A program made the position numbers and the translations under genes. Shown here piece by piece: positions 5,305-24,366 of a stretch of 24,366 nt of DNA (position 1 is its first letter; each line of letters starts with the position of its first letter). The stretch covers positions 1 to 24,366 of the forward strand of contig JAJRZV010000128.1 of assembly GCA_024275095.1 (NCBI GenBank), written 5' to 3'. The DNA comes from a bacterium. GTDB taxonomy: Bacteria; JAJRZV01. The notes under the pieces are model-generated. The model was given only the letters and a program-made list of their open reading frames with translations. It made no database searches and was not told the DNA's origin.

Positions 5305-6985
5305 ATTGAGGCCGTGGAATAACAATATCCATCCCGGGTTTCAGTCTGTTCGGATTGGGACCAATTTTATCCCGGTTGGCTTTATAGATAATTTTCCATT
5401 TTCTGGGGTTACAGTAGTACATGGCCGCAATCCAGTGTAAATCCTCTCCTTCCCTCACCGTATGAAGCAGAGGGTAATCCCAATCACACTTGAGAGACGT
5501 GATAAGTTCCCCGGGCTTGATAGGGGGTGGGGTTACGCGTATGGGCTCATGTACGGGAGGAGGAGCCGGGGCTGGTGAAGGTGACGGTGCAGGAGCTATT
5601 GCAGGAGTAGAAGGCTTTTCAACGGGTTTCACCGGTAACTCCACCGTCTCCTCAACCTCTTCAGAAGGAGCCTCTTCGATTTCTTCACTTACGGGCGCAG
5701 GGGTTTCTATAACTCCCTCTGGTTTACCCCCAGGAGGAGCTGCTGGTGGCGCTTCGGGTATGGAAGACTCGACCTCTTCTTCAACAGGAGCCTCTTCGCT
5801 CGGCGCAACAGCAGGAGCGGTTTCTGCGGGTATCTCCTCTTCCACACCTGCAGCGGTTGCTTCTTCAGGAACCTCCTCAGCAGGCACTTCTTCTTCTGGA
5901 ACCAGTGCCTTCTCCCCCGTCTCCTCTACAGGACCGGTTTCAACGGTTTCTGCTTCTTCACCTTCCTCAGGTGCCAGTGCCTTCTCTTCCGTTGCCGGGG
6001 GAACTTCTTCTGTCACGCCCGCCTCTTCCACCTCTTCAGTAATTCCTTCGGTTTCCTCTTCTGGTGCAAGTGCTTTTTCAGCAGGCACCTCTTCTTCTAT
6101 CACTTCCTCTTCTTCGGGTGCTGTTTCTGGAACTTCAGCTGCTTCCTCAGGAACAGCAGTAGCCTCTTCAGGGACGGTAGCTTCCTCAGGCAACACTTCC
6201 TCTTCTTCCACACCAGCTTCTTCGGTAACGGCTTGTCCGGCTTCTCCTTCTGGAGTGACAGCTTCTTCAATCCCTTCTTCTTTTGCAGGTACTTCCTCTT
6301 CCACAACAGCTTCTTCAGACGGAGCCTCTTCTACCGCCTCTTCCTCCACTGCAACGCCCTCCTCTTCAACACCCTCTTCCTCTGCGGCGGCTTTTTCTTC
6401 AACTGGCTCCGTCACCTCCTCTTCGGCAACCTCTCCTTCCTTCGGTGCTTCCTCCGGAGCCTCTTCTTCCTCTATAATTTCCTCTTCCTCTGCAGCAGTG
6501 ACTTCTCCCGCCTCTGTCTCCTCAACCGCACCTTCTTCCGCCACTTCCTCTTCACCGGCCTCTTCAACAAGCTCTTCTCCTGTTACTTCTTCCGCTGGCT
6601 CCGGCTCTTTCACCTCCGCCTCTTCTGTCTCGGGCTTCACACCTTCAACTTCCTTTTCTTCCTCTGTTTCCTCAGCAGTGACGGTTTCTTCACCCTCCAC
6701 AGGCTGGGCTTTTTCAGTTTCTGATTCTTCCTCGACTTCCGGGATCTCCTCGACAACCTCTACATCCTCTTCAATCACCGGTTCTTCTTCCCCGGTCTCC
6801 TCTTCGATTTCAACAGGTTCTTCCCCTTCTGTCGCGGTCAGCACCGCATTCTCATCCCCGTGAGCAAGTTGGGAAACAGGTAAAAAAGAGGTAGGCAAAA
6901 ACAGCAGCATTGTTACTATCATCATAATTTTTACAGATATACATTTGGATAAAATAAATTTATTGAACAGCCGGTGTTGTTCCAT
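5303..6985 (-). CDS. Exported Glu-rich low-complexity protein with C-terminal LysM domain
   Basis: The 560-aa protein has three parts. Residues 1-42 form a signal peptide with a long n-region and a hydrophobic core (IMMIVTMLLFLP). Residues about 48-455 are an extremely acidic, disordered tract made of Glu, Val, Ala, Pro and Thr with only about ten Lys and no Arg. It contains three copies of EKALxPEE (about 303-310, 334-341, 358-365). Residues 455-495 are Pro-rich (APAPSPSPAPAPPP), leading to a single LysM-like domain at about 505-560 (HTVREGEDLHWIAAMYY, then NRLKPGMDIVIP). LysM binds peptidoglycan glycan strands, so the protein is probably a periplasmic or wall-tethered polyanionic spacer. 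The start is well supported: AGGAGGTG (7000-6993) lies 7 nt before the ATG. A LysM family is clear; the role of the acidic tract is unknown. Confidence 0.85.
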   Translation of the reverse strand: MEQHRLFNKFILSKCISVKIMMIVTMLLFLPTSFLPVSQLAHGDENAVLTATEGEEPVEIEEETGEEEPVIEEDVEVVEEIPEVEEESETEKAQPVEGEETVTAEETEEEKEVEGVKPETEEAEVKEPEPAEEVTGEELVEEAGEEEVAEEGAVEETEAGEVTAAEEEEIIEEEEAPEEAPKEGEVAEEEVTEPVEEKAAAEEEGVEEEGVAVEEEAVEEAPSEEAVVEEEVPAKEEGIEEAVTPEGEAGQAVTEEAGVEEEEVLPEEATVPEEATAVPEEAAEVPETAPEEEEVIEEEVPAEKALAPEEETEGITEEVEEAGVTEEVPPATEEKALAPEEGEEAETVETGPVEETGEKALVPEEEVPAEEVPEEATAAGVEEEIPAETAPAVAPSEEAPVEEEVESSIPEAPPAAPPGGKPEGVIETPAPVSEEIEEAPSEEVEETVELPVKPVEKPSTPAIAPAPSPSPAPAPPPVHEPIRVTPPPIKPGELITSLKCDWDYPLLHTVREGEDLHWIAAMYYCNPRKWKIIYKANRDKIGPNPNRLKPGMDIVIPRPQ

Positions 6986-7287
6986 TAGTTTTCACCTCCT
7001 TTCCCGTGCCCCCTGAATATGGTATTAGGAAAATTTCTCATTATCTAAACCCGGGGCTTCATTTTATTTTATTATTTTAAGATAAATTTTTACTGTTTAA
7101 AAGCCAAAATCAGACAAGCAGTGTATCTACTTGATAGAAGCAATTCGGTACACACGATGCGCTGATTAACGCACTATGCCTGACATCGCATCGAAGATAT
7201 AGGCGCTGAAATCAATTGGTAAATTTATCAAAAACATATACACAAACCACTCAAGTGCACATGCTGTCTCTTTGACGAGTAAAAGGC
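6986..7287. other. Divergent intergenic region between the LysM gene and the GntR gene
   Basis: About 300 bp without a supported gene. The 6993-7000 part is the Shine-Dalgarno of the LysM gene. 7050-7110 is strongly A/T-rich and probably holds its promoter, though no single pair of boxes stands out. 7155-7193 carries an inverted repeat. A lone ATTGGT half-site at 7215-7220 matches one arm of the GntR-gene operator 90 bp downstream and could be a secondary binding site. Confidence 0.5.
7155..7193. repeat. Inverted repeat CGATGCG ... CGCATCG
   Basis: Perfect 7-bp arms at 7155-7161 and 7187-7193 flank 25 nt in the divergent intergenic region. It is not followed by a T run, so it does not look like a terminator. 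It could be a looped regulator site or chance. Confidence 0.35.
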
Positions 7288-7316
7288 TTGACAAAAACAA
7301 AAAATTGGTTTAACAA
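7288..7316 (+). promoter_or_regulatory. Promoter of the GntR-family gene
   Basis: A perfect -35 TTGACA at 7288-7293 is followed after 17 nt by TAACAA (7311-7316), a weak -10 matching TATAAT at three positions. The predicted transcription start falls only a few bases before the ATG at 7327, so the mRNA would be leaderless or nearly so. That agrees with the absence of a Shine-Dalgarno. The longest ORF uses the TTG of this -35 box as its start, which is evidently an artefact. Confidence 0.55.
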
Positions 7317-7326
7317 TTTAACCAAT
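7304..7326. promoter_or_regulatory. Palindromic operator, probable autoregulation site
   Basis: ATTGGTT (7304-7310) and AACCAAT (7320-7326) are perfect inverted 7-bp arms around a 9-bp A/T-rich centre. The site lies over the -10 region and ends at the base before the ATG of the GntR gene. The left part, TGGTTTAACAA (7306-7316), also fits the TNGTNNNACNA pattern typical of FadR/FCD-subfamily operators. Binding here would block the promoter, so negative autoregulation is the simplest reading. Confidence 0.6.
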
Positions 7327-8064
7327 ATGACCATACTGCCGTTAAAAAGAACATCACTTCCTGCAGAAATCGCCTCGCGACTGCGGGTTATGATTTTCTC
7401 GGGCGAATTCAAACCCGGCGATCGATTGCCATGCGAAAGAGAGCTCGCTTCCATGTTTGGAACAAACAGAAACACTCTTCGAGAGGCCCTGCGTTCGCTG
7501 GAAATGGTGGGCCTTATAGAAATAAGACAGGGAGCAGGAATATTCGTTAAAGATGTTCGCATTCATGGGAACCTTTCACTGCTCAATCATTTCATCAAAG
7601 AAGGATATAAAAGTCCTTACGCCCTGGAAGTTCTGGAGGACATGTTCCTCTTTCGCAGACGTTTCTTTCAGTGGGTCATCCCGGAAGCCGTCGAAAAATG
7701 TGAATGGGAAGATCTCGACTTTATTCAAAACTCTCTTCGTGAAATCCTGAAACTGAAAGGCACTCCTCAATCATCCGAAATTTTCACACACGACACCGCT
7801 ATATTCAGACGCCTCATTGCCTCCACCAGGAGAGCCTTTTACATGTGGACATTCAACACCATTGCAGAAATGGGCTGGAATATGATGAAAGTGGCGGGGG
7901 AAAACTGGATCTTTCCCGAGTTTTACTTTCACACGATGAAACGTTTTGTGAAAAAAGTGCTTGCAAAAGATGTAAAGGGCGTAATGAAAACACTGGAGAC
8001 ACATCTTAAACGTATGGATAACTTCACGCTCAAACTATCCAGAAACATTCTTTCACAGGGGTGA
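7327..8064 (+). CDS. GntR-family transcriptional regulator (FadR/FCD subfamily)
   Basis: A 245-aa repressor-type regulator. Residues 10-76 are the winged helix-turn-helix: LPAEIASRLRVMIFSGEFKPGDRLPCERELA, then TNRNTLREALRSLEMVGLIEIRQGAGIFV, a textbook GntR signature. Residues about 95-232 are an all-helical effector domain of FCD/FadR_C type, with candidate ligand-binding or metal residues in FTHDTAIF (153-160) and ETHLKRM (224-230). The ATG at 7327 was chosen over an upstream TTG because that TTG lies in the -35 box. The longer form would also add 13 residues not expected in the family. It ends 4 nt before the Tat-signal gene and so probably belongs to the same transcript. It may control the dehydrogenase genes; FCD effectors are usually organic acids, sugar acids or acyl compounds. 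The actual effector is unknown. Confidence 0.88.
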   Translation: MTILPLKRTSLPAEIASRLRVMIFSGEFKPGDRLPCERELASMFGTNRNTLREALRSLEMVGLIEIRQGAGIFVKDVRIHGNLSLLNHFIKEGYKSPYALEVLEDMFLFRRRFFQWVIPEAVEKCEWEDLDFIQNSLREILKLKGTPQSSEIFTHDTAIFRRLIASTRRAFYMWTFNTIAEMGWNMMKVAGENWIFPEFYFHTMKRFVKKVLAKDVKGVMKTLETHLKRMDNFTLKLSRNILSQG

Positions 8065-8068
8065 AAAA

Positions 8069-8581
8069 GTGAAATTGTCACGCAGGCGATTTTTGGGTTT
8101 CAGCGCAGGCGGAGCTGTTGTTGCTACAGCGGGGTACATTCTCCTGCGTCATTTATCGTACGGCCCTCCTGCAAAAAACCGCTGCCAGACAAAGCACCTG
8201 ACACCGCGTGAAGTTTCAATCATTGAGAAACTTTTTCACGATTTTTTTGAGCCTGACATAACAGGATTTCCCGTGGTCATAGATAAAGTGATACGCCGTG
8301 CTGATGAATATATCGGATTATTGCCTTCCAGGAATAAAAGAATGCTCAAGGGTGGACTTTTAATTATCGAACACGGCACCCTTTTTTCACGTCGCATATT
8401 TAGTCCCTACACCCGCCTTTCCAAGGAAGATAGAATGCAGTACCTGGAAAGCTGGGAGTCTTCCTCGAGTATTATTAAGCGTCAAATCATCGCCGGCATC
8501 AAAATGTTCATAGGACTGCTTGTGTTTTCTCTGGAAGAACCCAACGAATTTCTGGGAGTGCACAAGGAGTGTGGAGGATGA
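8069..8581 (+). CDS. Tat-signal 'gluconate 2-dehydrogenase subunit 3'-like small subunit
   Basis: The 170-aa protein starts with a Tat signal, SRRRFLGFS (residues 4-12), and a hydrophobic stretch to about residue 27. The mature part, from LTPREVSIIEKL to the C-terminus, follows the gluconate 2-dehydrogenase subunit 3 pattern (PF13618 type): LSKEDRMQYLESWESS and RQIIAGIKMFIGLLVF. In characterised FAD-dependent glucose, gluconate and fructose dehydrogenases the small subunit carries the Tat signal and escorts the signal-less catalytic subunit across the membrane. The start is GTG with AGGGGTG a few bases upstream. Its TGA overlaps the ATG of the next gene (ATGA), which is strong coupling evidence. 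I infer it is the hitch-hiker partner of the GMC protein downstream. Confidence 0.82.
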   Translation: MKLSRRRFLGFSAGGAVVATAGYILLRHLSYGPPAKNRCQTKHLTPREVSIIEKLFHDFFEPDITGFPVVIDKVIRRADEYIGLLPSRNKRMLKGGLLIIEHGTLFSRRIFSPYTRLSKEDRMQYLESWESSSSIIKRQIIAGIKMFIGLLVFSLEEPNEFLGVHKECGG

Positions 8582-10095
8582 GCGGGCGCATTCACAACTT
8601 TGAAGAAGTACCGGTCGGCACATCAATATCTACAGACGTAGTGATAATCGGTAGTGGATGCGGAGGAGCGGTAGCTGCTGCTTCGCTGGCTGAAAAAGGT
8701 TTCAACGTGGTGGTGGTGGAAGAAGGGCGGCACTGGAAGATCGAGGAATTCCCAGACGATTTTGTTACAGCCATGGAGAAATTGTACCGGGAAAAGGGTA
8801 TGCGAAGTGCCGTCGGAAACACAGTTATAACGCTTCCTGTTGCCAGAATGCTGGGTGGCACATCCGTGGTCAATTCCAGTATTTGTTTTCGCATACCCGA
8901 TTTCGTGCTCGACGAATGGGAGAAAGAAACAGGATTTGAAATTGACCGTGAAGAGTTATCAGCACATTACAGGGCTGCGGAAGAATTCCTCCGAGTCGGC
9001 AAACCAGGCCCCGAAATTGTTACCAACAACGACCGACTTCACAAGGAAGCAGCTGATATGCTGGGCTGGAACAACGACTATTTCGACCTCAATGCACCTG
9101 ACTGTGAAGGGTGCAATCGTTGCAACATCGGGTGTCCCGTGGGCGGGAAAACCAGCATGGACATGAGCTATATCCCCCGCGCCGTTGCCGCAGGCGCCAG
9201 AATTTATACGTGTACGCGCGCAGACGAAATAATCGTGCGAAAAGGAATATCACGCGGGATAAAGTGTACTGTACAGGATCCTGACTCAGGTCAAATTCGA
9301 GGTGTCCTGGAAATCCTGGCACGTGCTGTTGTGCTTGCGGCTGGAGCCATAGAAACACCCGTGCTTCTCATGAAGAACAAACTTTGCAGCACATCCGGAT
9401 GGCTGGGTCATAACCTCCACATCCACCCTGCTACCGGGGTTTTCGGTTTTTTCCCAGACCGCGAAATTAAACTCTGGCGCGGAGTGTTTCAGGGTCATTA
9501 TATTGATGAATTCATCGAAGATGGATTTGTAATAGAAACAGCCTCTGTACCTCCAGAAGCCATATTCTCAGCCATGCCATTCATAGGAAAAAAAGCTGTC
9601 GAAATCCTGAAAAACATGGCTCACTTCACATCATCCGGCGCCATGATACGTGACTCCAGCAAGGGGCGAGTTAAACCCGGGGATGAAGACCACGTGAACA
9701 TCACATATTTTGTAAACGAGGATGACCGCCGGAAATATATAGAAGGCATGTCAAAAATCGCTCTATTGCTACTCAAGGCAGGGGCAAAGTGGGTCAGGCC
9801 CGCCATTTATACTGAAGAGTTTATATACAGTGAAAGTGACATACTTCATGTGCTATCACATAAACATCTGAAACCAGAACATATCTTTTTATACGCAAGC
9901 CACCCACAGGGTACCGCACGCATGGGTACCATGAAAGACCGGACCGTAACAGATATGAACGGTGAAACCCACGAGGTCAAAGGGCTGTTCATTGTGGACG
10001 CCAGCGTATTCCCACTGGCAGCAGGAGTCAATCCCCAGCTGACCATTATGGCACTGGCATCATACCTGGCAGAACGAATCGCCAGTAAAATATAG
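8578..10095 (+). CDS. GMC-family FAD-dependent oxidoreductase with a CxxCxxCxxxCP cluster
   Basis: This 505-aa flavoprotein oxidises an alcohol or sugar-type hydroxyl. The FAD Rossmann motif is VVIIGSGCGGAVAAASLAEKG (21-41). The GMC C-terminal domain carries SHPQGTARMG with the catalytic His442, and the second active-site residue is Asn485 (AAGVNPQLTIMALA). That His/Asn pair resembles cholesterol oxidase-type GMC enzymes. Cys176, 179, 182 and 186 form CEGCNRCNIGCP, the spacing of a ferredoxin [4Fe-4S] motif. Related dehydrogenases (FAD-GDH, FDH) carry a [3Fe-4S] cluster in this subunit. The protein has no signal peptide, consistent with co-export with the Tat-bearing partner. The start at 8578 is preferred over GTG 8569 because AAGGAG lies 8 nt upstream and because of the ATGA overlap. 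No cytochrome c subunit is adjacent. The substrate is unknown; long-chain alcohol, sterol and sugar remain possible. Confidence 0.9.
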   Translation: MSGRIHNFEEVPVGTSISTDVVIIGSGCGGAVAAASLAEKGFNVVVVEEGRHWKIEEFPDDFVTAMEKLYREKGMRSAVGNTVITLPVARMLGGTSVVNSSICFRIPDFVLDEWEKETGFEIDREELSAHYRAAEEFLRVGKPGPEIVTNNDRLHKEAADMLGWNNDYFDLNAPDCEGCNRCNIGCPVGGKTSMDMSYIPRAVAAGARIYTCTRADEIIVRKGISRGIKCTVQDPDSGQIRGVLEILARAVVLAAGAIETPVLLMKNKLCSTSGWLGHNLHIHPATGVFGFFPDREIKLWRGVFQGHYIDEFIEDGFVIETASVPPEAIFSAMPFIGKKAVEILKNMAHFTSSGAMIRDSSKGRVKPGDEDHVNITYFVNEDDRRKYIEGMSKIALLLLKAGAKWVRPAIYTEEFIYSESDILHVLSHKHLKPEHIFLYASHPQGTARMGTMKDRTVTDMNGETHEVKGLFIVDASVFPLAAGVNPQLTIMALASYLAERIASKI

Positions 10096-10178
10096 GAAAA
10101 AGCATCGGGGTCTGGTCTCAACATTGGACATTCGGGATTTACGCCGGGGTTTTGCATGGAATTGGGGGAATAGAACCC

Positions 10179-10215
10179 GGGATCGCTTCGGTCGTCCTGC
10201 CTCTGGCAGGATCCC
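10179..10215. repeat. Bulged hairpin / REP-like element
   Basis: The right arm GGCAGGATCCC (10205-10215) pairs with CCTGCC (10196-10201) across a 3-nt loop, and then with GGGATC (10179-10184). The two left-arm pieces are separated by an 11-nt bulge (GCTTCGGTCGT). This reads as an 11-bp perfect hairpin interrupted on one side. It has no T run, so it is not an intrinsic terminator. It may be one copy of a dispersed repeat. Confidence 0.45.
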
Positions 10216-10316
10216 TTACAATAGCTGGATGTCGGGTAATATAAAGCGCGTGTTACCTGCGCGCCCCAAAAACAGGGACAGAGCGGGAAACACAAAGCTC
10301 AGCGCGAGAGGCTCAT

Positions 10317-10328
10317 GTGACCGGTCAC
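10317..10328. promoter_or_regulatory. Perfect 12-bp palindrome, candidate operator
   Basis: GTGACCGGTCAC is fully self-complementary and lies about 115 bp upstream of the acyl-CoA dehydrogenase start. Short perfect palindromes in this position are often repressor sites for fatty-acid or acyl-CoA genes. It does not resemble the ATTGGTT/AACCAAT site, so a different regulator would be implied. Confidence 0.35.
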
Positions 10329-10359
10329 TGCTGCCCGTAGCACGAACCGAAAGCATCCG

Positions 10360-10387
10360 TGGCGGGAGCACGAAGATTCGAACTTGT
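10360..10387 (-). other. tRNA 3'-end-like relic
   Basis: Read on the minus strand from 10387, the sequence has ACAAG, the T-loop-like TTCGAAT, CTTCG, a 7-nt TGCTCCC, one base and CCA, which is exactly the spacing of a tRNA T-arm, acceptor 3' strand and CCA end. Only three of five T-stem pairs form, and no matching 5' acceptor (GGGAGCA) or D/anticodon arm follows, so it is not a functional tRNA. It could be a decayed tRNA fragment, such as an old attachment site, or chance. Confidence 0.35.
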
Positions 10388-10442
10388 AATGAAACCCATT
10401 CAGGAGAAAAATAATTCCATCCCTTTAGGTAAGGAGGAAGCT

Positions 10443-11678
10443 ATGTTTGATTTCAAATTAACACCTGAACAAAAAAAACTACGTGAAGAAGTGAGAGAAT
10501 TCGTCAAGTCTATTCCGCGTCAATTTCTGCTCGACCTGGACGCTGATAAAATACGGTACCCCAAAGACTACGTAAAAGACCTTGCCAGGAGGAAACTGCT
10601 GGGGCTGCGTTTCCCTGAAAAATACGGCGGTAGAGGCCTTGGCTGGCTTGAAGAAGTCATTGCCATTGAAGAAATCGGGGTACTTGGAACCACCCCTGCA
10701 TGTCTTTACTCACTTCCCAGCATAGTTGGAGAAGCCATTAATATCTTCGGTACACAGGAGCAAAAAGAAAAGTATCTCAAGGCCACACTCGAGGGCAAGC
10801 TCTTCACTGCCGAGGCCCTTACAGAGCCGCGAGGCGGTTCAGATTTCTTCGGTGCAACCACCACCGCCGTGCGTGAAGGTGATTACTACATCCTCAACGG
10901 GCAAAAACGCTTTGTTGTTGGCTCTGAAGGAGCCGATTATTTCCTCGTATATGCACGTACTGATCCCAATGCGCCGGGACACAAATCCATCAGCGCCTTC
11001 CTCGTGGACCGTGATGAAACGGTGGAGGTGAAACACGTATACGGACTCATGGGAACACGCGGCGGGGGCACAGGAAGACTTTTATTTAAAAACACAAAGG
11101 TACCCGTAGAAAACCTCATCTGGAAAGAAAACCAGGGAGCAGACGTGTTCTACCAAATGATGATTCCCGAACGCATGACTTCTGCAGCCGGAGCACTGGG
11201 CATGGCAAAGGTGATTGAAGTGGCAGCCCGGTACGCTGACAGGCGCAAGGCCTTTGGCCAGAAAATTCGCAAATTCCAGGGGGTCAGTTTCAAAATTGCG
11301 GATTCAGTAACCAAACTCGATGCAGCACGAGCTCTTGTTTACTCCATTGCTGAAGCGATTGATAGCGGCAAAGAGGACCCTGGTAAGCTGCGAAGACTGG
11401 TATCCGAGGCAAAAAAATTCGCCACGGATGTGGCATGGGAAGTAGTCAACGATGCCATGCAGATCATGGGAGGCATCGCTTACACAAATGTTTATCCTAT
11501 CGAAAGGATACTCAGAGATACCCGCCTCATTATGATCTGGACAGGTACCAACGAAATTATGAACCTCATCATCCAGCATGAATACTTTAAAGAAATCCTT
11601 GAAAAAGAACCCGAAGGAAGAAATATTGAAATGGATGCTCCAGATGCAGACAAGGAGGAAGAAAAAGTGTATGAGTAA
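10443..11678 (+). CDS. Acyl-CoA dehydrogenase
   Basis: A 411-aa cytoplasmic flavoenzyme that introduces the alpha-beta double bond in an acyl-CoA and passes electrons to ETF. The ACAD layout is complete: helical N-domain with [15 protein letters not shown] (6-20), middle beta domain with LTEPRGGSD (126-134) and [23 protein letters not shown] (151-173), and C-terminal domain with [11 protein letters not shown] (265-275), [11 protein letters not shown] (339-349) and [10 protein letters not shown] (364-373). The usual catalytic Glu of the YEGT loop is Thr367 here, while Glu243 (IPERM) lies where the isovaleryl- and long-chain enzymes have their base. The C-terminus ends in an unusual acidic tail (from about 388). 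The start ATG has AAGGAGGAAGCT immediately upstream; the longer frame from 10359 runs through non-coding sequence. An SDR gene follows after 38 bp. The acyl substrate is unknown. Confidence 0.93.
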
Positions 11679-11716
11679 ATTATTTTATACTTGCATGAGC
11701 AGGGGGCAGCTGAATA

Positions 11717-12493
11717 ATGGAAAAATCTCTTCTCAACCGTTTTAGAATGGATGGCAAAAAAGCGCTGGTAACAGGTGCTTCCAAGGGTATCGGGCGGGCG
11801 GTTGCTGTAGCTCTGGCAGAGGCTGGAGCCGACGTGGCTGTAGTGGCACGGTCCAAGGACCTGCTCTATTCACTGAAAGAAGAGATCGAGGGTTTTGGAC
11901 GCGTATGTGTTGTACTTCCATGTGACGTTTCTCAGGAGTCAGCGGTAAAACGCAGTATAGAAGAAGCATGGGAAAAACTGGACGGACTCGACATTCTCAT
12001 CAACAATGCTGGTGTAACTTCGGTTTCACCCGCAGAGGACCTGGATACCGAAAACTGGCGACGGATTCTGAGCATCAACCTGGATGGAGTTTTTTATTTC
12101 TGCCGCACATGGGGTAAAAAAGCAATCTCAGCAGGTAGAGGCGGTTCTGTAGTGAACGTTACAAGTGTTCTCGGACTTGTGGCCACGAAATACGTGGCTC
12201 ATTACAGTGCATCCAAGGGTGGTCTCATCAGCCTCACACGCGCCCTCGCCCTTGAATGGGCACGTTATGGAATACGCGTAAACGCGGTGGCACCGGGATG
12301 GGTCAAAACCGAAATGACAGCGGGAATTCAACAAAGTCCCGACGTGTATCAGAAATACTTAAAAAACATTCCCATGAGACGATGGGCTGATCCTGAAGAT
12401 ATTGCAACAGTTGTATTATTTCTCGCCTCTGATGCCTCTTCTTACATGACCGGCCAGACAATAATTGTCGATGGTGGATTAACTATTTTATAG
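11717..12493 (+). CDS. Short-chain dehydrogenase/reductase (classical SDR, FabG-like)
   Basis: A 258-aa NAD(P)-dependent oxidoreductase. It has the cofactor motif TGASKGIG (19-26), NNAG (96-99), and the full tetrad Asn121, Ser150, Tyr163 and Lys167 (HYSASKGG). It ends with the VNAVAPGWVKTEM loop and the C-terminal MTGQTIIVDGG. The length is standard. Ala41-Val-Val-Ala-Arg45 after beta-2 has Arg45 where NADP-preferring members often carry a basic residue, so NADPH is plausible. It lies 38 bp after the acyl-CoA dehydrogenase and probably shares its transcript. The natural substrate could be a 3-hydroxyacyl compound or an alcohol, and FabG function itself is not established. A G-rich stretch (AGGGGGC) about 12 nt upstream is a weak ribosome-binding site. 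Confidence 0.9.
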   Translation: MEKSLLNRFRMDGKKALVTGASKGIGRAVAVALAEAGADVAVVARSKDLLYSLKEEIEGFGRVCVVLPCDVSQESAVKRSIEEAWEKLDGLDILINNAGVTSVSPAEDLDTENWRRILSINLDGVFYFCRTWGKKAISAGRGGSVVNVTSVLGLVATKYVAHYSASKGGLISLTRALALEWARYGIRVNAVAPGWVKTEMTAGIQQSPDVYQKYLKNIPMRRWADPEDIATVVLFLASDASSYMTGQTIIVDGGLTIL

Positions 12494-14635: not shown

Positions 14636-14671
14636 ATTTTTGATATTGATATTCATCTCAGGAGGAGAAGG

Positions 14672-17161
14672 GTGAAAAACGAAAGTAAATACAGATTAAC
14701 GATTGGCATGGTTGTGCTGTTCAGCACAGTGGTAATGGGGTGTAGTATAGGTGAAAAGTGCTCGCCTTCACTGTTTATCCGTGAGCCTGCACAAAAAAGC
14801 CTGAATATTCGCAAAGGAGCCGTTATGGAATTCAGTGCCGCAGCCACATCATGCGTCGGCGATACGGGGTTCTCTTACGAGTGGATAGTTAACGGCAAAC
14901 CCCAGGGGTTCGAAAATACCTTTCGATTTTATGCATGTGAAAGCGCATCAGTACCTATCACTGTAGTCGTAAGAGCCACAAACAGCTCCGGAGAAGTGGT
15001 TGAACAAAAATGGACTGTATCCATTACGGACACGGGACGCATAATTCGTCCCCAGGAAGTTCAAGATGCCATCATGACCATTAAGGGCAATCACACTTTT
15101 AACCCGGCGTTTCCGGAAATTTACACACAGTCCGTCACGGCATTTCAGCAAGCAGTGAGTGTATTAGATATATATCTGAACACCACCAACGCCTGTGACT
15201 TCGACGCCAGTTATGCTGACGGGCTTGCAAGGCTTGTTCTTTTACTAACACGGGTTCCGGAATATTACAAAATGCGTCAGCAGATGACTCCCTCCGATGT
15301 GTTCCAGATTATCGACGAAGACATGCTGCCCATCGTGGAAAGACTGGACGTGGTCAGGCGGTATGCACCCGACAATTTCTCGTTCAAAATTGACAACCTT
15401 TTTGTGGTGGTACTGGAAGATTTGCCCGATGTCCCCGGCAATCAGTTCGTCGCAGTAGACCTCAGTGGCGAGCATGACTATACAGACGTGCTCTTCTTTT
15501 CTTCTGGAGCTGCAGCAGGGATGGCGGCACTACACATGGCCCTCGCATACAATGGAATTGTTAATTTTGCCCTCTCTCTACCCAACCCTGACGAAATGGT
15601 ATATCTGAAAAAGTTCGCCCAGGGCTTAACAGGACAGTTCATCCTGGAAAGTGCCATCATCGAAAAACTTGAAGACGACCCCACTTTTCTCATGCTGAGT
15701 CCCCCGGACGAAAAAGGCATTGACGGCCGGGGACACCTTGCCATTGCTCAAAAACTGCTGGCGGTCGCCATGAGGGACTTTGAAGCAGCCCTCGGTTCAC
15801 TCGTATCTGAACCCAATACAGAAGCAGATCCTCAGGATGACGACCTTGTAAGGTACTGGGATTGCGGAAGTGACGGGGTCTGCCCCGGCGACCCGGAAGA
15901 ACGCTCCAACGTAAATGCCCCCTGTGAAGATGCCAACGGCAACACTCAGGCTTACACGGATAAGAACTTTAACGGCGAATGCAATCCACCTCACTGTGAT
16001 ACAGACGGTGACGGACAGCTCGATCTCACACCTGACACAAATCCGTACGATCCCAAGAAAGAAACGGTCTGTGTCGCCCCTGACGAAGGGGAAATGAACG
16101 GTCAGTTTGATTATGGTGAGCCGGTGGGCTTCGAATTCGTCCGCGTATTCAAAAACGAAACCGAGCGTTACAGCCTTCCTGTGCAGGATTACATCAGGAA
16201 TGACATACTCATGCTGGCAGACAATATAGAAGGTGTAGACCGGGACGGAGATGGAGAACCAGACCCTCTTAACCTCAACGCTTTTGTACCGGGCTTTGAT
16301 GTGTATGCTGCCATGGAAGCATACGGCATTCCCAAGCCCGACATTCGACTGGCAGAGTTCTTCCAGACGCCTTCCAACCTGCGTGACCTTGTACCCTTAT
16401 ATGCACGTCCTGGATGTCTGTATCACGGCTTCGAAAACCAGTTTATTTTCACCGAAGAATTTGAAGCTTTTGTGGACAATGGATATGACCACCTGTGGTC
16501 TTACGAAGAACCGGGATACGATGCAATCACCAACAGGGACCCATCCCACGACGATTACGACCCCGTGTGTGATCCACAATGTAACAGCAACGACGGCTGG
16601 GACAACGACCAGGATGGAAAATGCACACCTGACGAATGTTCAGCATGTCGCAGCAATTACAACAATGCAAATTTTGCGTGCGATGATACGTCCAGCATTG
16701 GAGTAAATACCGACAATGGGACAGAAGGCAATTATCACTGGGACTGCAAGTCGCCCCAGGAAGTCAGTAACGGCATTCAGTGCGCTGGTGATGCGGAAGA
16801 GTTTATAGATGAGGGGGTATTCAACGGCGTAGAATTTATCGGTGCGAACGACGGCGTATATAATAGAATTGACATGGAACACATATGGCCCACTGATGCA
16901 TGTATCGGAGGAATACAACCGGGAATCACAAGCGACCCCCGAAACGGTGTTGACTCTCCAAGCCTCGACACACTGGAAGAAAATGGCAACCTTTACGATC
17001 CATTTTACGCCTTTTTTCCTGATCCCACCTTCAGCGGCGTAATTCGATTTGAAGAAGAAATCGTCAACAGCGATGGAGAAGCTCTCAACAACAACGCGAA
17101 ACTCATGCGTTTTCTGACAAAACTGTATAACCTTGCAGTTATGTTTGGTGCTATTGATTAA
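14672..17161 (+). CDS. Large lipoprotein with PKD-like N-terminus and Asp-rich Ca-binding motifs
   Basis: An 829-aa predicted outer-membrane or surface lipoprotein: signal peptide with lipobox VMGC (Cys24). Residues about 33-120 look like an Ig/PKD-like fold (FSYEWIVNGKPQ, VVVRATNSSGEVVEQKWTVSITD). Residues about 125-380 are mostly helical and unrecognised. The second half carries thrombospondin-3-like calcium loops: DTDGDGQLD (443-451), DRDGDGEPD (523-531) and NDQDGKCTPDEC (645-656), amid many Cys that probably form disulfides. The start is GTG with AGGAGGAG 4-5 nt upstream; in-frame translation before it lacks a signal. It is first in a run of lipoprotein genes, 15 nt before the next. I do not recognise the family and no enzyme motif is visible. 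Confidence 0.85.
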   Translation: MKNESKYRLTIGMVVLFSTVVMGCSIGEKCSPSLFIREPAQKSLNIRKGAVMEFSAAATSCVGDTGFSYEWIVNGKPQGFENTFRFYACESASVPITVVVRATNSSGEVVEQKWTVSITDTGRIIRPQEVQDAIMTIKGNHTFNPAFPEIYTQSVTAFQQAVSVLDIYLNTTNACDFDASYADGLARLVLLLTRVPEYYKMRQQMTPSDVFQIIDEDMLPIVERLDVVRRYAPDNFSFKIDNLFVVVLEDLPDVPGNQFVAVDLSGEHDYTDVLFFSSGAAAGMAALHMALAYNGIVNFALSLPNPDEMVYLKKFAQGLTGQFILESAIIEKLEDDPTFLMLSPPDEKGIDGRGHLAIAQKLLAVAMRDFEAALGSLVSEPNTEADPQDDDLVRYWDCGSDGVCPGDPEERSNVNAPCEDANGNTQAYTDKNFNGECNPPHCDTDGDGQLDLTPDTNPYDPKKETVCVAPDEGEMNGQFDYGEPVGFEFVRVFKNETERYSLPVQDYIRNDILMLADNIEGVDRDGDGEPDPLNLNAFVPGFDVYAAMEAYGIPKPDIRLAEFFQTPSNLRDLVPLYARPGCLYHGFENQFIFTEEFEAFVDNGYDHLWSYEEPGYDAITNRDPSHDDYDPVCDPQCNSNDGWDNDQDGKCTPDECSACRSNYNNANFACDDTSSIGVNTDNGTEGNYHWDCKSPQEVSNGIQCAGDAEEFIDEGVFNGVEFIGANDGVYNRIDMEHIWPTDACIGGIQPGITSDPRNGVDSPSLDTLEENGNLYDPFYAFFPDPTFSGVIRFEEEIVNSDGEALNNNAKLMRFLTKLYNLAVMFGAID

Positions 17162-17175
17162 GCAGGAGGGTAACT

Positions 17176-20100
17176 TTGAAGAAACTATCGGCAGCAAGCT
17201 GTATTCTTATCACTTTTGCTGTTTCTCTTTACGGCGGATGTGAAGGGAAAAAAGTCACACCTGAAATAAAACTGGAAACCACTGCCAACCCTCCAGGCGG
17301 TAAATATCGACGCAATGAACTACCATTTTTTGTCACCCTTTCATCGAGTAAAAAAGCCACCATTTACTACACCCTCGACGGTTCTGCTCCTCTGCCCGGA
17401 AGAGATACCACATTTTCCGCTCCCAGTCCTGTCACAGGTATCGAAATTAACGGTCCCACGACCCTGCGCTATTTTGCAGAAGACGAGGAAGGCAACCGCG
17501 AGAGTGTAAAAACCGAAGTTTACGAAATCGACGAACCGCCCGAAACCGTGGCATTGCCACCAGGGGGGCGATTCGCTGACAACATCACGGTCACCCTTTC
17601 TGCATCCGAGCCAGCAACCATTTATTACACGATGGACGGAACGGATCCCACACCCGAACATTACGACAACACCTGTGCCAACTCCTGTCAGGTGAAAATT
17701 ACGTGTCCTGAAACCGAGGAAGAATGTACAACCATTTTAAAATTCTTTGCGATAGACCAATCAGATATCGAAGAAGAAACCATCCACCAGGAAACGTACA
17801 TCATTGACCGTAAAAAACCAACTACTTACATTACTCCGCCCGGTGGTCACTATGACGGTCCCCAAAGCGTGCAGCTTCTCACCGATGAACCCGCAATCAT
17901 TTACTACTGCATCAACGGGGGAGTCCCCTCTACCCAGCCTGAAAATTTTATTGAAAACGGCGGTTGCACTTATCGCGCGGAAAATTCAGCAGCCATAGAA
18001 GTGAATGATCATACTATCCTGCGTTATTTTGCCGTAGATGAAGTGGGCAACCAGGAAGACATGCACACTCAGATATACAGAATAGGCGATGCTCCTATTG
18101 CTGTCCTCGATCCTCCTCCGGGGCTCTACAACTACCTGCCATTCGTCGTCACCGTCACATCATCCCCACAGCCGGCCACGTTCTACTATACTCTCGACGG
18201 TACTGACGTGACCATCGGTTCTTCATCCTTCTGCAACACACCCTGTACATTCACCATCACCAATCCCGAAGCCAACGTGGTCAAGTACATTATTACCGAC
18301 GGGGTCAATCACGATAAACAAAGGGAAGCACTCTACATTCTGGACATAACACCCCCCACAACAACAGCGGACCCCGCAGGCGGATATTACGATTCACCAA
18401 TTTCCGTAACCATTTCTGCAAACGAAGACAACGTTACTGTGTATTACACTGTCATTGAGGGCCAGGACGGCTGCAGCACCACACCCCCTTCCTCTGCGCT
18501 TTCCAAAGCCAAAGCACCGGTAAAAAACATCAGCATTTACGCTGATAGTGCCATTTACTATTACGGAGTCGACCTCGCGGGAAACCAGGAAAATGCAAAA
18601 TGCGAAGAGTACAGCATATACGGCCGTTTTACCGAAGACTTCAGCAACGATACCTACATAGACACCGCAAATACCGATGCAGAAATTGACTACGTGAAGA
18701 CAGAAGTTCACCTCAGTATTGACAGACCGGAAGTTGTAAATACTCTTCCTCTCAACGTCGTACCTCAGGCAATGGCCGTCTCGGGCAAATACCTACTGGC
18801 GGCTGGGGGGGCTCAGGGAATCCTCGTGTTTGATATTTCAATGCCCGACGACCCTGTTTACCTGGACAGCTATCTGCCCGAACTTGGACGAACTTATATA
18901 TCTTTGAAATTCTACGGCAGGTATTTACTCGCAGGATGGACAACACCTACAGAAATTGGTGTAGACCTTATAGATGCAGCCAATCCGTCGGTTCTGGTGG
19001 GTGCAAATCCACCTTCACCAATCACCTCTTACACAGAACCGGCAGATACCGGCAAAGCACCTGTAAGAATCGAGGTCATAAACGACCATGTCCTTGTAGC
19101 CATGGGCACCCCTGGAGCTGGAACATGGTCTTCCAGGCTGGTCTCTCTGATCACAGATTACAGCTCCATTCTCGATTATGTCACCGAAGTTAACAACCTG
19201 AGTTATCATCCGTATTACGCACTTCTTATAAACGGTGACTTTGCTTTCGGAGGAAGTGTAGATGGCTGGGTTGACTCATTCAGCATAAAAAACCTGGACG
19301 CTTTCCCAAACAGCCCTTCCGATTTAGTAAGTCTTGACGGCCCTGTATACGACATGGTCATGAAAGAAGGATACATACTCGCTCTTGTAGATGCAGGCAG
19401 CACTTCACGCCTGCGCATCATCAACGCTACCGATCCCACTGCAATGAATCTGCTCTCTAACTATCTTGAATTTAACGCGGACACACCTTACCGAATCGTC
19501 CTCAATGGAGCCACGGCCTATATTGCTTCTTCCGCTCGTTTGCTTGTACTCGACGTGAGGAATCCATCATCACCGGTGAAACTGGTGGAAATGGACGCAC
19601 CTGGTTGTAGAGACCTTGTCATTGTCGGCGAATACGCTTACTGTGCCGGACTTGCTGCTGAGCTGATAACCCTTCGAATTGGTGAACGTTCCGCTTTGAG
19701 TTCGGTGAAGGAATGGGATGCAGGCAGTACCATCACAAAAATAGGTTTATCGGGAGACTATCTCTATGCTATTACATCCGGTGCTGTCTCACTACTTACC
19801 ACTGACCTCGAAACGATCTATTCCATCGGCGTGTCTGGTGCTACTGGATTTTCACATTTTGGAATGGACATATATAACAGAAACGTAGGTGTCGTTGCAT
19901 CATCTTCTGGACTTCAGTATTTCAACCTGGAAAACACCGCGCCCATCTGGATTACCAGTGCAGCAATAGGTCGGGTGGACGACCTTGTCATCGACGGAGA
20001 TATGATATATACAGCATCGGGAGATTCCGGATGTGGTATATACGACGCATCTGAAGTATTTTCACCATCATTAAGCGCCGTATTTTCCATTGTCGGCGAG

Positions 20101-20847
20101 TCATGCCTCGATGTGCTCGCCGCTGGTCCTGAGTTGCTTACATTATTCAATGCATCGGGACTGTATGTGGTAGACGTAAGAACACCCTCATCACCTGCAC
20201 AAATGGGCACTTACAATACATCAGGCAATCCTCAAACAATGGGGCTCGAGGGCAATATGCTCGTCGTAGCGGACGGACTCGGGGGAGCCGTGACGCTGGA
20301 CATAACGAACCGCTACACACCACAACTCCTTTCAACAACCCCCACAAGTAATGCAAAAGATGTGGAGGTCTTTGGATTTACAGCCTATCTGGCCGATGGG
20401 AGCGGTGGGCTTAAATCCATCAACCTTACTATTCCCGATACACCCCTTATCGACCGAAGCCTGTCATTGCAGGATTCACGATCCATAGCCTTTGATGGTG
20501 AATATATATACGTAACCGATGGTGCCCGCCTCCTTAAAGTAAACTCGCTGAAACCCCTCGCCAGTTATCGACCAACAGGAACGGTCACTTCCCTCAACAT
20601 TAATTCATCCGGTCTCAATGTAAAGAAAGGTCGCATCCAGATAGATGCAACAATACCAGATGGAACATCCGTAACTCTCTATCTATCAAATGATGGTGGG
20701 ACTAACTGGTTGCAGGTGTACCAGGGGCAATTCGTCACCTTTCCCAATCTGGATGCTGACCTGAGATGGAAAGCCGTTCTCAAAACAAACGATCCCCGCA
20801 AAACGCCGGTAATAAGATCAGTTACTGTAGTGTACTACTACGAGTGA
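17176..20847 (+). CDS. Lipoprotein with five chitobiase-C-type repeats and an LVIVD-type beta-propeller
   Basis: A 1223-aa predicted surface lipoprotein with lipobox YGGC (Cys22). Residues 33-480 hold five tandem repeats (about 33-118, 122-210, 214-303, 307-389, 392-480). Each begins PPGGxY or a variant, passes through an IYYTxDGxxP core and ends at xLRYFAxDxxGNxE. This is the pattern of the chitobiase/hexosaminidase C-terminal (CHB_HEX_C) domain. Residues about 510-1130 contain many blades of the LVIVD type (AMAVSGKYLLAAGG, VFDISMPDDPVYLDSY, LVLDVRNPSSPVKLVEM, VVDVRTPSSPAQMGTY), a predicted propeller. The C-terminus (about 1135-1223) is a separate beta domain. The start is TTG, supported by AGGAGGG 5 nt upstream and the signal peptide. 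There is no catalytic domain, so a binding or adhesion role is inferred. Confidence 0.87.
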   Translation: MKKLSAASCILITFAVSLYGGCEGKKVTPEIKLETTANPPGGKYRRNELPFFVTLSSSKKATIYYTLDGSAPLPGRDTTFSAPSPVTGIEINGPTTLRYFAEDEEGNRESVKTEVYEIDEPPETVALPPGGRFADNITVTLSASEPATIYYTMDGTDPTPEHYDNTCANSCQVKITCPETEEECTTILKFFAIDQSDIEEETIHQETYIIDRKKPTTYITPPGGHYDGPQSVQLLTDEPAIIYYCINGGVPSTQPENFIENGGCTYRAENSAAIEVNDHTILRYFAVDEVGNQEDMHTQIYRIGDAPIAVLDPPPGLYNYLPFVVTVTSSPQPATFYYTLDGTDVTIGSSSFCNTPCTFTITNPEANVVKYIITDGVNHDKQREALYILDITPPTTTADPAGGYYDSPISVTISANEDNVTVYYTVIEGQDGCSTTPPSSALSKAKAPVKNISIYADSAIYYYGVDLAGNQENAKCEEYSIYGRFTEDFSNDTYIDTANTDAEIDYVKTEVHLSIDRPEVVNTLPLNVVPQAMAVSGKYLLAAGGAQGILVFDISMPDDPVYLDSYLPELGRTYISLKFYGRYLLAGWTTPTEIGVDLIDAANPSVLVGANPPSPITSYTEPADTGKAPVRIEVINDHVLVAMGTPGAGTWSSRLVSLITDYSSILDYVTEVNNLSYHPYYALLINGDFAFGGSVDGWVDSFSIKNLDAFPNSPSDLVSLDGPVYDMVMKEGYILALVDAGSTSRLRIINATDPTAMNLLSNYLEFNADTPYRIVLNGATAYIASSARLLVLDVRNPSSPVKLVEMDAPGCRDLVIVGEYAYCAGLAAELITLRIGERSALSSVKEWDAGSTITKIGLSGDYLYAITSGAVSLLTTDLETIYSIGVSGATGFSHFGMDIYNRNVGVVASSSGLQYFNLENTAPIWITSAAIGRVDDLVIDGDMIYTASGDSGCGIYDASEVFSPSLSAVFSIVGESCLDVLAAGPELLTLFNASGLYVVDVRTPSSPAQMGTYNTSGNPQTMGLEGNMLVVADGLGGAVTLDITNRYTPQLLSTTPTSNAKDVEVFGFTAYLADGSGGLKSINLTIPDTPLIDRSLSLQDSRSIAFDGEYIYVTDGARLLKVNSLKPLASYRPTGTVTSLNINSSGLNVKKGRIQIDATIPDGTSVTLYLSNDGGTNWLQVYQGQFVTFPNLDADLRWKAVLKTNDPRKTPVIRSVTVVYYYE

Positions 20848-20855
20848 GGAAAGCA

Positions 20856-22028
20856 ATGAGGAGACCAGTTACATATTTAATGCTTCTTATCATGATATTT
20901 ACAGGTTGTGCAGCTGACAACTCAGAAGATAATAAGGACGAAAACAAGGGCAATACGTATGCCTCCGTAACCTATGAATTCTCTCTCATGCCGGACGAGG
21001 CGTGGATGAATACAGGTATTGTTATTCATCCTTATACAGTTATAACAATTACGTCCAGCGAAGAAGCAATGGGAGACCCCGTTGTTCAGAGTATGGACCC
21101 GGTGGAAGGATTCGGCCACAGAGGCCTTATCGGCAAGATCGGTGTTGACGGAAGACCATTTGCCATTGGTAGGTACAAAGAAATTCAACTGCACGCAGAT
21201 TATGAAGGCAAAGAACTGTATCTGGGATGGAACGATTCATTTAACGACGCTGATATAAACTATGCCCAACTGACACCTCTCGATGTTCAGGTCACCGTGG
21301 AAGAAACAGACGCACCACCCCTTATTTCACCCGAGGATGGCATCTGGGTCACCACCCAGACCCCTGTGTTTGAATGGGAAGACTTCAACCACGCCATACA
21401 GTACGTCATTCAAATATCGCCCTTTGATGATTTCCGAGTACTTGAAGAAGAGCTCAATACCACCAACTCCTTTCTCAATACAGCTCAACCTACTATTGGA
21501 TACCCTACTACTCAACAACTTCAGAACCCCCTACAAATGGCCGAAGGTGTACATTACTGGCGCGTGAGAGCACAACTCAACAGATGTTCCACTTTCAATC
21601 CCTGCGCTGAATGGACCAGATGGTCTGCACCTTTCAAAATGGGGGTCGAACTCGGCAATGCTCCGGAAGAACCAGACATTGTTAATCCAACAGGGTCATC
21701 CTTTACATCAGGTGAAAAGGTTCTTTTTGAATTTCGGCAGGTCCCTGATCCCAGTGGAACATACTGGCGGTATCGTATCGTTACAACAGCATGTGGCGAT
21801 ACACCACAGATAGACCCTGAAGATCCTTCATCAGGCAATCCTTCAAACTGGGCTGTTTTTCAAAACCCCTCACCCTTTCCCGGTGGGCGTGTGGATGTAC
21901 CCATGTACTATGCAAGCTTCTACACTCCCAGACTTACAAAAGGTGAATGGCTCGTACGTATTGAAATTAAAGACGGACTCGATAACATCACTTACGTGGA
22001 CTATAAGTTTTCTGTGGATTGCGAGTGA
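20856..22028 (+). CDS. Lipoprotein with FN3-like domains
   Basis: A 390-aa predicted lipoprotein. The ATG at 20856 is chosen over an upstream in-frame ATG (20766) because it opens a clean signal (MRRPVTYLMLLIMIFTGC, Cys18). It follows GAGGAA and comes 8 nt after the preceding stop, whereas the longer frame overlaps that gene and would bury the signal. After a low-complexity linker (DNSEDNKDENKG) there is an N-terminal beta domain. It is followed by two fibronectin-III-like segments: LISPEDGIWVTTQTPVFEWE to HYWRVRAQL, then PDIVNPTGSSFTSGEKVLFEF to the end. The WRVRA and EWLVRIEIKD strands are typical of such folds. The family is unknown. Confidence 0.83.
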   Translation: MRRPVTYLMLLIMIFTGCAADNSEDNKDENKGNTYASVTYEFSLMPDEAWMNTGIVIHPYTVITITSSEEAMGDPVVQSMDPVEGFGHRGLIGKIGVDGRPFAIGRYKEIQLHADYEGKELYLGWNDSFNDADINYAQLTPLDVQVTVEETDAPPLISPEDGIWVTTQTPVFEWEDFNHAIQYVIQISPFDDFRVLEEELNTTNSFLNTAQPTIGYPTTQQLQNPLQMAEGVHYWRVRAQLNRCSTFNPCAEWTRWSAPFKMGVELGNAPEEPDIVNPTGSSFTSGEKVLFEFRQVPDPSGTYWRYRIVTTACGDTPQIDPEDPSSGNPSNWAVFQNPSPFPGGRVDVPMYYASFYTPRLTKGEWLVRIEIKDGLDNITYVDYKFSVDCE

Positions 22029-23968
22029 AGGACGACATCCGGGACTCAAAACAATATACCCCTGTATCTACAATAACCATCCTGCTGCTGGCAGTAGGGA
22101 TTTCTTGTACATTCGTTACAGGTGGATGTACAAAGAAAACCGGGGAAAGTGTAAACACTCCATCCGCCCCACATTCACTCACCGCAAAATTTCAAAAAAA
22201 TCACGTTCTTATCCAGTGGGAAGCACCAGTGGAAGAAATAGTAGACTACTACGGAATATACAGGCGCCTGAGCAATGCGGAAGAATATTCCTTCCTTTTA
22301 TCCGTTACAGAAACAACCTATTCAGATTTCCACATCCAGCCAGGTAGTACATACTGGTATGTGGTCACTGCATTCAAAAATGGACGCGAAAGCCCTTTTT
22401 CCAACGAGGTCAGTATTACAATACCGAACAGGTGCCTGCCCGGCGAAGAGGTATGCGATGGACTGGACAACGATTGCGATGGAGATATTGATGAACTGCC
22501 TGTTTGTACAGGGATCTGTGATTCAAGAGACGCTTTGTTTATCTATAAATTCTCGCCTCCTGAAGGAGAATTCACTGTTGCATCAAGAATAAATTTTTCT
22601 GCGGATGTGTTCTATAACGTTGCGAGTACCACATCCACCACCCTGGGCCTTTACCTCGACGATGCTTCAGGCCTTTCATTTCCCCCTGCCTCAACTCACG
22701 TACTCGCCCTTACAACGGCATCCGGTTGCAACAGCGTGCACTTCCAATCTTCCCTTACCATCCCACCTGCAAAGGCGCTTATCCTCTCTGTACGAATGAC
22801 AACACCTGAAGGCAACTTCATAAAAAGGTTCTTTTATTCCCCATCAGGGGAATTTTTGAAACCCATCACCGTAGTGCCCGAACCACGAACGAAATTCACA
22901 GGAGCAATGACATTTTCCGCTCATGTAACCGCCTATTACAGGTCAAGCATTACGTCTCAGCCCGTGATCTGGTTGGAAGCACTGGACGACGAAGGGAACT
23001 ATTACGACGAGTTTGTACAGGGATATACCGAAGGTTATACAGAGTTCAGCTTTACTATGCCTGTTGACTGTTTCACTGACGAGATCAACGTGTCCGTCTA
23101 TATGATGGACGTTTTTGGCACAGGGGCAATACTTGCAGGATGGGACGGAATTTATTTCTTCAAGACTCTTGACAGGTTTATCGTCAACACCGGATGGTTC
23201 CTCTTTGGAGTAGAAAATGCCACGCTCTCGAACCCCGAAGCTGACACTTTATCTTTAAACCGGGAATGTGATACCTCAGGAGATTTTACTATACAACCAT
23301 CAGCATCATGGATTGAAACAACCCCCGCATCAGGAAATACACCTTCAAGCATCAGTGTGTCCGTAAAACCATCTTATTTTATGTCCTTTGGGCTTTTTGA
23401 AAGCAAAATCGAAATATCCGGAAGCAATGTTTCTGCCGAAAACCTTACGGTGGTGGTGCTATCATATGCTTCAACCATTTTCACAGAAGACTTCGAAAAC
23501 AGTATCACGGGGTGGACGTATTCCGGCCTGTGGCATCTTGTTACCGACGGGGCGACAGCAGCACCTGCGTCTTCTATTTCACCCTCACACGCGTTCTGGT
23601 ATGGCCAGGAATCCACCGGGAACTACGATACAGGCCTTACCAGTACAGGTGGGCTCACGTCACCTGTATTCAGCATCCCTGCAGGTTTGGAAAGGGTGTA
23701 CCTGATGTTTTACTCGTGGGAAGAAACCGAAAATTTCCCTGGTTACGACGTAAGACAGGTTTACATAGGACCACCTGCAAATCCATTTGAAACTCTTATA
23801 TTTGATTCTGAAGCCTCGCCTTCCTCCTGGCGAAGGTTGTTGATAACCATACCACCTTCATACATAGGAACAAGTGTTGTCCTTACTTTCTACTTTGACA
23901 CAGGAGACGAATTCGATAATGCCTACCGCGGCTGGATGATTGACGATATTATGGTTGTGGGATACTGA
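22025..23968 (+). CDS. Lipoprotein with FN3 domain, MopE-type metal-binding motif and jelly-roll-like C-terminus
   Basis: A 647-aa predicted lipoprotein with lipobox TGGC (Cys35). I place the start at GTG 22025, whose GTGA overlaps the previous stop; a TTG two codons upstream is also possible. Residues 46-134 form a fibronectin type III domain (HSLTAKFQKNHVLIQWEAP to YWYVVTAFKNG). Next comes EVCDGLDNDCDGDIDE (142-157), the MopE-type putative metal-binding motif common in myxobacterial and related surface proteins. The central 170-470 region is beta-rich and unrecognised. The C-terminus (FTEDFENSITGWTYSGLWH to FDNAYRGWMIDDIMV) resembles the MAM/jelly-roll domains with a GWxIDDI ending seen in secreted proteins. 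It is overlapped with the gene before and followed 1 nt later by the next gene. Confidence 0.84.
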   Translation: MKDDIRDSKQYTPVSTITILLLAVGISCTFVTGGCTKKTGESVNTPSAPHSLTAKFQKNHVLIQWEAPVEEIVDYYGIYRRLSNAEEYSFLLSVTETTYSDFHIQPGSTYWYVVTAFKNGRESPFSNEVSITIPNRCLPGEEVCDGLDNDCDGDIDELPVCTGICDSRDALFIYKFSPPEGEFTVASRINFSADVFYNVASTTSTTLGLYLDDASGLSFPPASTHVLALTTASGCNSVHFQSSLTIPPAKALILSVRMTTPEGNFIKRFFYSPSGEFLKPITVVPEPRTKFTGAMTFSAHVTAYYRSSITSQPVIWLEALDDEGNYYDEFVQGYTEGYTEFSFTMPVDCFTDEINVSVYMMDVFGTGAILAGWDGIYFFKTLDRFIVNTGWFLFGVENATLSNPEADTLSLNRECDTSGDFTIQPSASWIETTPASGNTPSSISVSVKPSYFMSFGLFESKIEISGSNVSAENLTVVVLSYASTIFTEDFENSITGWTYSGLWHLVTDGATAAPASSISPSHAFWYGQESTGNYDTGLTSTGGLTSPVFSIPAGLERVYLMFYSWEETENFPGYDVRQVYIGPPANPFETLIFDSEASPSSWRRLLITIPPSYIGTSVVLTFYFDTGDEFDNAYRGWMIDDIMVVGY

Positions 23969-23969
23969 G

Positions 23970-24366
23970 ATGCAGGGTGTTGCTTTACTCTTTGTTATGT
24001 TATCTTTCCCAGTGGGTATTACTTTTCAGCACAGTCATGAAATCAAAAATCTGGACGCTTCATTAGCCCGAAGTCTTGAAAAAGGAAAAATCGTCAAATT
24101 TACATCGGTAGAAGAAGGCAAGGATGGTAGGCACTATGGCTGGGGCACCAGCCTGGGGTTGATCAATGCACCTTTTGAACGACTCAAAGACATTATTCTC
24201 GACTTCGAAAAATTCCCAAACTTTCTACCAAACTTGGTAGAGCTTAAAGTTTTGTCACGTAGGGGCAATAAAGCAAAAGCCTATCATAAAGTAAAGGCTT
24301 TATGGCTGGAGATGAAATACTATCTCATATACACCATTAACGAAACTCCAGAATCAGTCACAATCA
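23970..24366 (+). CDS. Exported START/SRPBCC-like protein, N-terminal part (partial)
   Basis: The frame from ATG 23970, one base after the preceding TGA, stays open to the window edge (132 codons). It begins with a short hydrophobic signal-like stretch (MQGVALLFVMLSFPVG) and continues into a START-like fold: INAPFERLKDIILDFEKFPNFLPNLVELKVLSRRGNKAKAYHKV. The phrase 'lost at each step: xxDxxxFPxFLPxV' is the hallmark of polyketide-cyclase/COQ10-type lipid-binding domains. The tight spacing places it in the lipoprotein operon. Such proteins bind hydrophobic ligands; the ligand here is unknown. The stop lies outside the window. Confidence 0.72.
   Translation, partial: MQGVALLFVMLSFPVGITFQHSHEIKNLDASLARSLEKGKIVKFTSVEEGKDGRHYGWGTSLGLINAPFERLKDIILDFEKFPNFLPNLVELKVLSRRGNKAKAYHKVKALWLEMKYYLIYTINETPESVTI

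Follow-up and report, generated by a model that had tools for sequence, protein, structure and literature searches.

We identified three lipoproteins, referred to here as P1, P2, and P3, that are encoded consecutively in one bacterial genome and recur together, mostly as adjacent genes, in distant lineages. As they co-occur and are adjacent in such distant lineages, the three are not a chance set. We tentatively propose, at a little under an even chance, that they constitute one ancient, lipid-anchored envelope module whose members jointly hold a polymer or glycan. The genes were found in a DNA stretch of 24,366 nt, here called the window, which is one entire contig (C106) of a 2.45-Mb genome that is 97% complete and whose closest relatives in the genome collection share only the domain level with it. 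The relevant features of the window are as follows.

14661 to 14671, plus strand: Shine-Dalgarno sequence AGGAGGAG before P1, 84 nt downstream of trpA
14672 to 17161, plus strand: P1, 829-aa lipoprotein with a GTG start, from a family without a Pfam match
17176 to 20847, plus strand: P2, 1223-aa lipoprotein with a TTG start after GGAGGG
20856 to 22028, plus strand: P3, 390-aa lipoprotein
22025 to 23968, plus strand: P4, 647-aa lipoprotein whose GTG start overlaps the P3 stop
23970 to 24366, plus strand: P5, exported START/Polyketide_cyc protein, truncated by the contig end

All five genes lie on one strand downstream of trpBA, with good ribosome-binding sites upstream of P1 and P2; P3 may alternatively start at an in-frame GTG that overlaps the P2 stop. 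The intergenic gaps from P1 to P5 measured 14, 8, −4, and 1 nt. The initial annotation had called a tightly spaced five-gene operon, which we confirmed; its last three gaps agree with ours, but its first, 15 nt, does not. The first 141 nt of another contig of the same genome (C8) are an exact copy of the window end, and C8 completes P5 as a protein of 218 aa with its stop at C8:399-401. We consider the C106-C8 join credible because the ends of two further contigs of this genome, C116 and C45, also overlap by 141 nt, probably the word length of the assembler. A convergent CLC chloride-channel gene ends 21 nt past the P5 stop. Extension of the contig beyond position 24366, a check suggested earlier, thus located the operon end: since C8 completes P5 and the convergent gene follows, the operon consists of exactly five genes, of which P5 is the last. 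A promoter scan returned fewer sites than shuffled sequences, and a terminator scan gave a weak excess over shuffles with none sited at the operon boundary. The products had been described as giant and unrelated; the first term applies to P1 and P2 but not to P3 and P4, and the second was borne out, as P1 to P4 showed no similarity in mutual comparison. Elsewhere in the window, a 560-aa exported protein without a Pfam match is encoded on the minus strand (5303-6985), around which the GC skew is strong (−0.38 at 6001-7000). Upstream of trpBA, positions 7288-12493 consecutively encode a GntR regulator, a small Tat-signal-like protein, a GMC oxidoreductase, an acyl-CoA dehydrogenase, and an SDR protein.

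A first search of a 192-genome sample found P1 homologs in four other genomes, and a P1 profile search returned ten named contigs; a scan of the genome collection with P3 alone gave no match. Of the 11 genomes examined that carry P1, the window genome included, 10 contain P2 and P3 as well. The exception, G048, which carries P1 without P2 or P3, is 84% complete and fragmented, and its P1 lies on a 5-kb contig. Within a 386-genome sample, full-length P1 was found in seven genomes, P3 in six, and full-length P2 in six, the remaining P2 matches spanning the propeller only; the P2 and P3 genome sets were identical and both fell inside the P1 set. The order P1-P2-P3 is shared by the window, the isolate STA_72 (L026), and a Lake Pavin MAG (L028). 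P1 and P2 are adjacent in five genomes of the Candidatus Calescibacterium group (L029-L033), where P3 is unlinked but present in every genome, and P2 and P3 are adjacent in two f44 genomes, G043 (L065) and G189 (L066), the adjacency in the second spanning a contig break. Genomes in which P3 lies apart from the others nonetheless encode it, at E < 1e-78. With shared ancestry ignored, Fisher's test puts the probability of the overlap between the P1 and P3 sets at about 2e-12; counted by lineages, including those of L026 and L028, the overlap amounts to about four cases. Because of shared ancestry, the co-occurrence represents few independent events. An all-against-all comparison of the neighborhoods revealed no other family common to different lineages, housekeeping matches excepted. 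The expectation that all five genes would co-occur therefore holds for P1, P2, and P3, which are not scattered but adjacent in distant lineages, and fails for P4 and P5.

P4 contains FN3, a MopE-type motif, a BACON-like stretch, and a C-terminal adhesin-like beta domain. The FN3 and MopE motifs noted earlier score 23.9 and 21.1 bits in P4 itself, under the Pfam cut-offs of 25 and 27 bits, but a paralog in the window genome exceeds both. This paralog, the true relative of P4, is a 705-codon frame split over C116 (L089 3676-4958) and C45 (L088 8506-9481), whose overlapping ends jointly encode it; it combines FN3, MopE, and an adhesin-like C-terminal domain, and an ECF-sigma-like gene is located not far away. 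No P4 ortholog was found in other genomes, where FN3/MopE pieces were the only matches, and P4 was accordingly ruled out as having an ortholog elsewhere. The complete 218-aa P5 passes the PF03364 cut-off (24.4 versus 23.4 bits), as expected of START/Polyketide_cyc exported proteins and in support of the START-like identity first assigned to it. Weak START-type relatives occur in most genomes with the trio, but none is linked to it, as they never lie on the trio contigs. The suggestion that P5 serves as a lipid carrier was not upheld, its relatives being weak and unlinked to the trio elsewhere. From their distribution, P4, which is lineage-specific, and P5 are local additions. The five genes as one conserved unit were ruled out because P4 and P5 do not track the trio.

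P1 had no Pfam match and represents a new family. Single-chain structure prediction, which had been put forward as a check, gave for P1 a model with an Ig/PKD domain (residues 28-121, with Cys61-Trp71-Cys89) and a confident helical domain (residues 128-390), followed by an Asp-rich part modeled with low confidence. The family signature YWDCGxDxxC lies at 395-404, and DPTFSGV forms a C-terminal motif. The Asp loops of calcium-binding type pointed out previously were recovered as four DxDxDG-type loops in P1, compared with 0.2 expected from shuffles. A P1 profile search of PDB sequences gave PKD/Ig matches only, and a fold search with the whole model was filled by Ig-domain matches. The helical domain recurs in lipoproteins of ~660 aa in the Calescibacterium group (L116-L122), some of which join TPR-like N-terminal repeats to it, so P1 is part of a wider superfamily. 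Both f44 genomes carry two tandem, diverged P1 copies (L024 3550-8065; L025 2-4463), located away from P2-P3.

The CHB_HEX_C-type repeats and LVIVD-type propeller earlier ascribed to the operon were both supported by Pfam in P2. Five CHB_HEX_C_1 stretches (E 1e-46, 157 bits, well over the cut-off) accompany an LVIVD beta-propeller region at about 530-1120 (E 7e-17, 61 bits against a cut-off of 20.2) and a C-terminal beta domain, and both repeat types are above the cut-off in all eight P2 members. LVIVD-repeat proteins are cell-surface proteins (PMC2447325). P2 resembles them in its propeller repeats of about 42-47 aa but differs in adding the five CHB_HEX_C repeats and the C-terminal beta domain, and in being genetically tied to P1 and P3. 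Seven clear blades were counted in the short f44 P2 (about 860 aa, one propeller) and 12-13, mostly weak, in the L026/L028 proteins. The window P2 gave only eight weak blade matches, and its length suggests that it may contain two propellers. A P2 profile search of PDB sequences returned nothing convincing. A propeller-like lipoprotein of 955 aa is also encoded on contig C118 of the window genome (G000; L090 5155-11260), where its gene adjoins that of an exported 1081-aa protein whose BPI/LBP-type match is weak; the two form a second large envelope pair in this genome.

The predicted model of P3 revealed a feature absent from the initial annotation. Residues 39-151 superimpose on the PA-IL (LecA) lectin (2vxj) with Z 13.4 and an rmsd of 2.2 Å over 107 of 120 residues, the next match being far below at Z 9.4, and residues 151-390 are modeled as two FN3/Ig-like domains. 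We therefore assign the first domain, as modeled, to the PA-IL fold. P3 differs from LecA in that Pfam PA-IL matched none of the 10 P3 members (E up to 1), and in that the domain is fused to FN3-like domains and lipid-anchored. LecA holds calcium and galactose via an Asn pair. Asn126 is invariant in the P3 family, the next residue is Asp in only three of the 10 members, and the loop varies in length. LecA-type galactose binding by P3 is thus doubtful, since neither the Asn pair nor the wider Asp/Asn ligand loop is conserved across these 10 members. A P3 profile search of PDB sequences gave no match. In another lineage (G150; L097 1018-3240), a 740-aa lipoprotein joins the P3 FN3-like part (E 1e-24) to a P3-like start.

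The lipobox cysteines are C24 in P1, C22 in P2, and C18 in P3, and the anchor cysteine occupies an invariant column in each family alignment (12 rows for P1, eight for P2, and 10 for P3). For these three proteins, the lipoboxes recognized at the outset were thereby substantiated, though that of P2 (LYGGC, with Tyr at −3) is noncanonical; its cysteine is conserved, and its relatives carry lipoboxes such as LAAGC and LISSC. Asp at +2 is absent from all P1, P2, and P3 family members, and by the Escherichia coli sorting rule this absence fits sorting to the outer membrane. As the window genome encodes LpxK, KDO transferase, and a lipid A acyltransferase, its gene content makes an LPS-type outer membrane likely. 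Given the invariant anchor cysteines and the encoded lipid A and KDO steps, P1, P2, and P3 are likely outer-membrane lipoproteins.

Based on these data, we envisage that P1, P2, and P3 are exported together, are lipid-anchored, most likely to the outer membrane with an outward orientation, and either make up or contribute to a single envelope assembly. In this scheme, P1 would be a calcium-dependent scaffold with its Ig/PKD domain on a helical body bearing Asp-rich loops; P2 would provide a long stalk of five CHB_HEX_C repeats bearing one or two propellers, through which proteins or ligands would be contacted; and P3 would present a sugar- or polymer-binding head, its PA-IL-fold domain standing on two FN3-like spacers. 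The adhesin-like P4 and START-like P5 would have been added in the window lineage. We thus regard the trio as a putative assembly of lipoproteins that is anchored in the outer membrane, binds a polymer or glycan, and probably depends on calcium. The operon and its end, the conserved trio, its co-occurrence, the conserved anchor cysteines, and, as predictions, the domain folds are what the data show; the physical complex, its outer-membrane and surface location, calcium binding, and the class of ligand are what we infer. A surface assembly that binds a polymer or hydrophobic ligand had been suggested from the outset. This part stands for P1-P3, which are all lipid-anchored and consist of binding or adhesion modules, and the polymer-binding reading is strengthened by the lectin fold of P3; the five-gene unit does not stand. 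No catalytic domain was found in P1-P3, in line with the lack of catalytic motifs reported before.

The closest likeness we considered is to SusD/SGBP and Sas-type starch adherence, in which unrelated, lipid-anchored, Ig/FN3-rich binding proteins that are not enzymes are encoded together; Sas6 and SGBP-B are among the fold matches of the P1 Ig domain. However, no SusD fold was detected in the trio, and the architectures of P1 and P2 are foreign to those systems. Neither a TonB-dependent transporter (SusC) nor glycan hydrolases were found among the window genes, the next C8 gene, or the conserved trio neighbors, and a Sus-type uptake locus was ruled out for want of an adjacent TonB-dependent transporter or glycoside hydrolase. 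The papers searched contained no description of the P1-P2-P3 set, in agreement with the earlier remark that no system of such composition was known; its parts are known domains except P1. To one further possibility we give somewhat less than even credence: the trio would be a hitherto undescribed envelope complex of three lipoproteins, found throughout the Calescibacterium phylum and also in a few further deep lineages, and P1 would be the founding member of a new calcium-binding scaffold family.

Other explanations were weighed against this proposal. In the RpoB tree, the window genome lies beside the Calescibacterium group (100/100) and f44 near it with weak support, the L026/L028 genomes standing apart; the P1 tree resolves f44, L026/L028, and Calescibacterium as three distinct groups, each with long branches, and the P2 tree was a quick tree. 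Both old inheritance with loss and some transfer fit these data. The RpoB placement means that the co-occurrence partly reflects shared ancestry, and this, together with the unlinked P3 of the Calescibacterium group, would suit three lipoproteins of related but independent functions that owe their joint occurrence in a few lineages to inheritance and form no assembly. We find this rather improbable, since adjacency has been kept or rebuilt as P1-P2 or P2-P3 at about 30% identity and persists in lineages that have no other neighbors in common.

An unlikely, if less improbable, alternative is a structural envelope layer, in which the trio would permanently cover the outer membrane with calcium-stabilized Ig-type proteins, as a coat, a sheath, or a lattice resembling an S-layer, and would capture no outside ligand. 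The presence of P1 in all five Calescibacterium-phylum genomes examined, the location of the trio among housekeeping genes and not in a catabolic locus, the calcium-type loops of P1, and the Deinococcus HPI S-layer among the Ig-type fold matches of P1 and P3 are all consistent with such a layer. The S-layer matches are, however, generic Ig-domain matches, level with many unrelated ones, and a lattice normally consists of a single, highly abundant protein and not of three lipoproteins. We give least weight to a periplasm-facing or trans-envelope maintenance machine for lipid, LPS, or protein traffic, with P5 carrying lipid, which is quite improbable. P5 is in the operon, 1 nt from P4, and belongs by score to the Polyketide_cyc/START family; but its relatives in other genomes do not accompany the trio, no conserved transporter or chaperone lies beside the trio, and P1-P3 are made of binding modules.

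The lipid-anchored binding module thus remains our preferred, tentative reading. With this trio, hitherto anonymous lipoproteins from uncultured bacteria become a defined, testable unit of three families, of which P1 is absent from the domain libraries searched. The unit would characterize part of the cell surface both of the Calescibacterium phylum and of other deep lineages without cultured members, and it provides a marker set and an expression target for learning what such bacteria hold on to.
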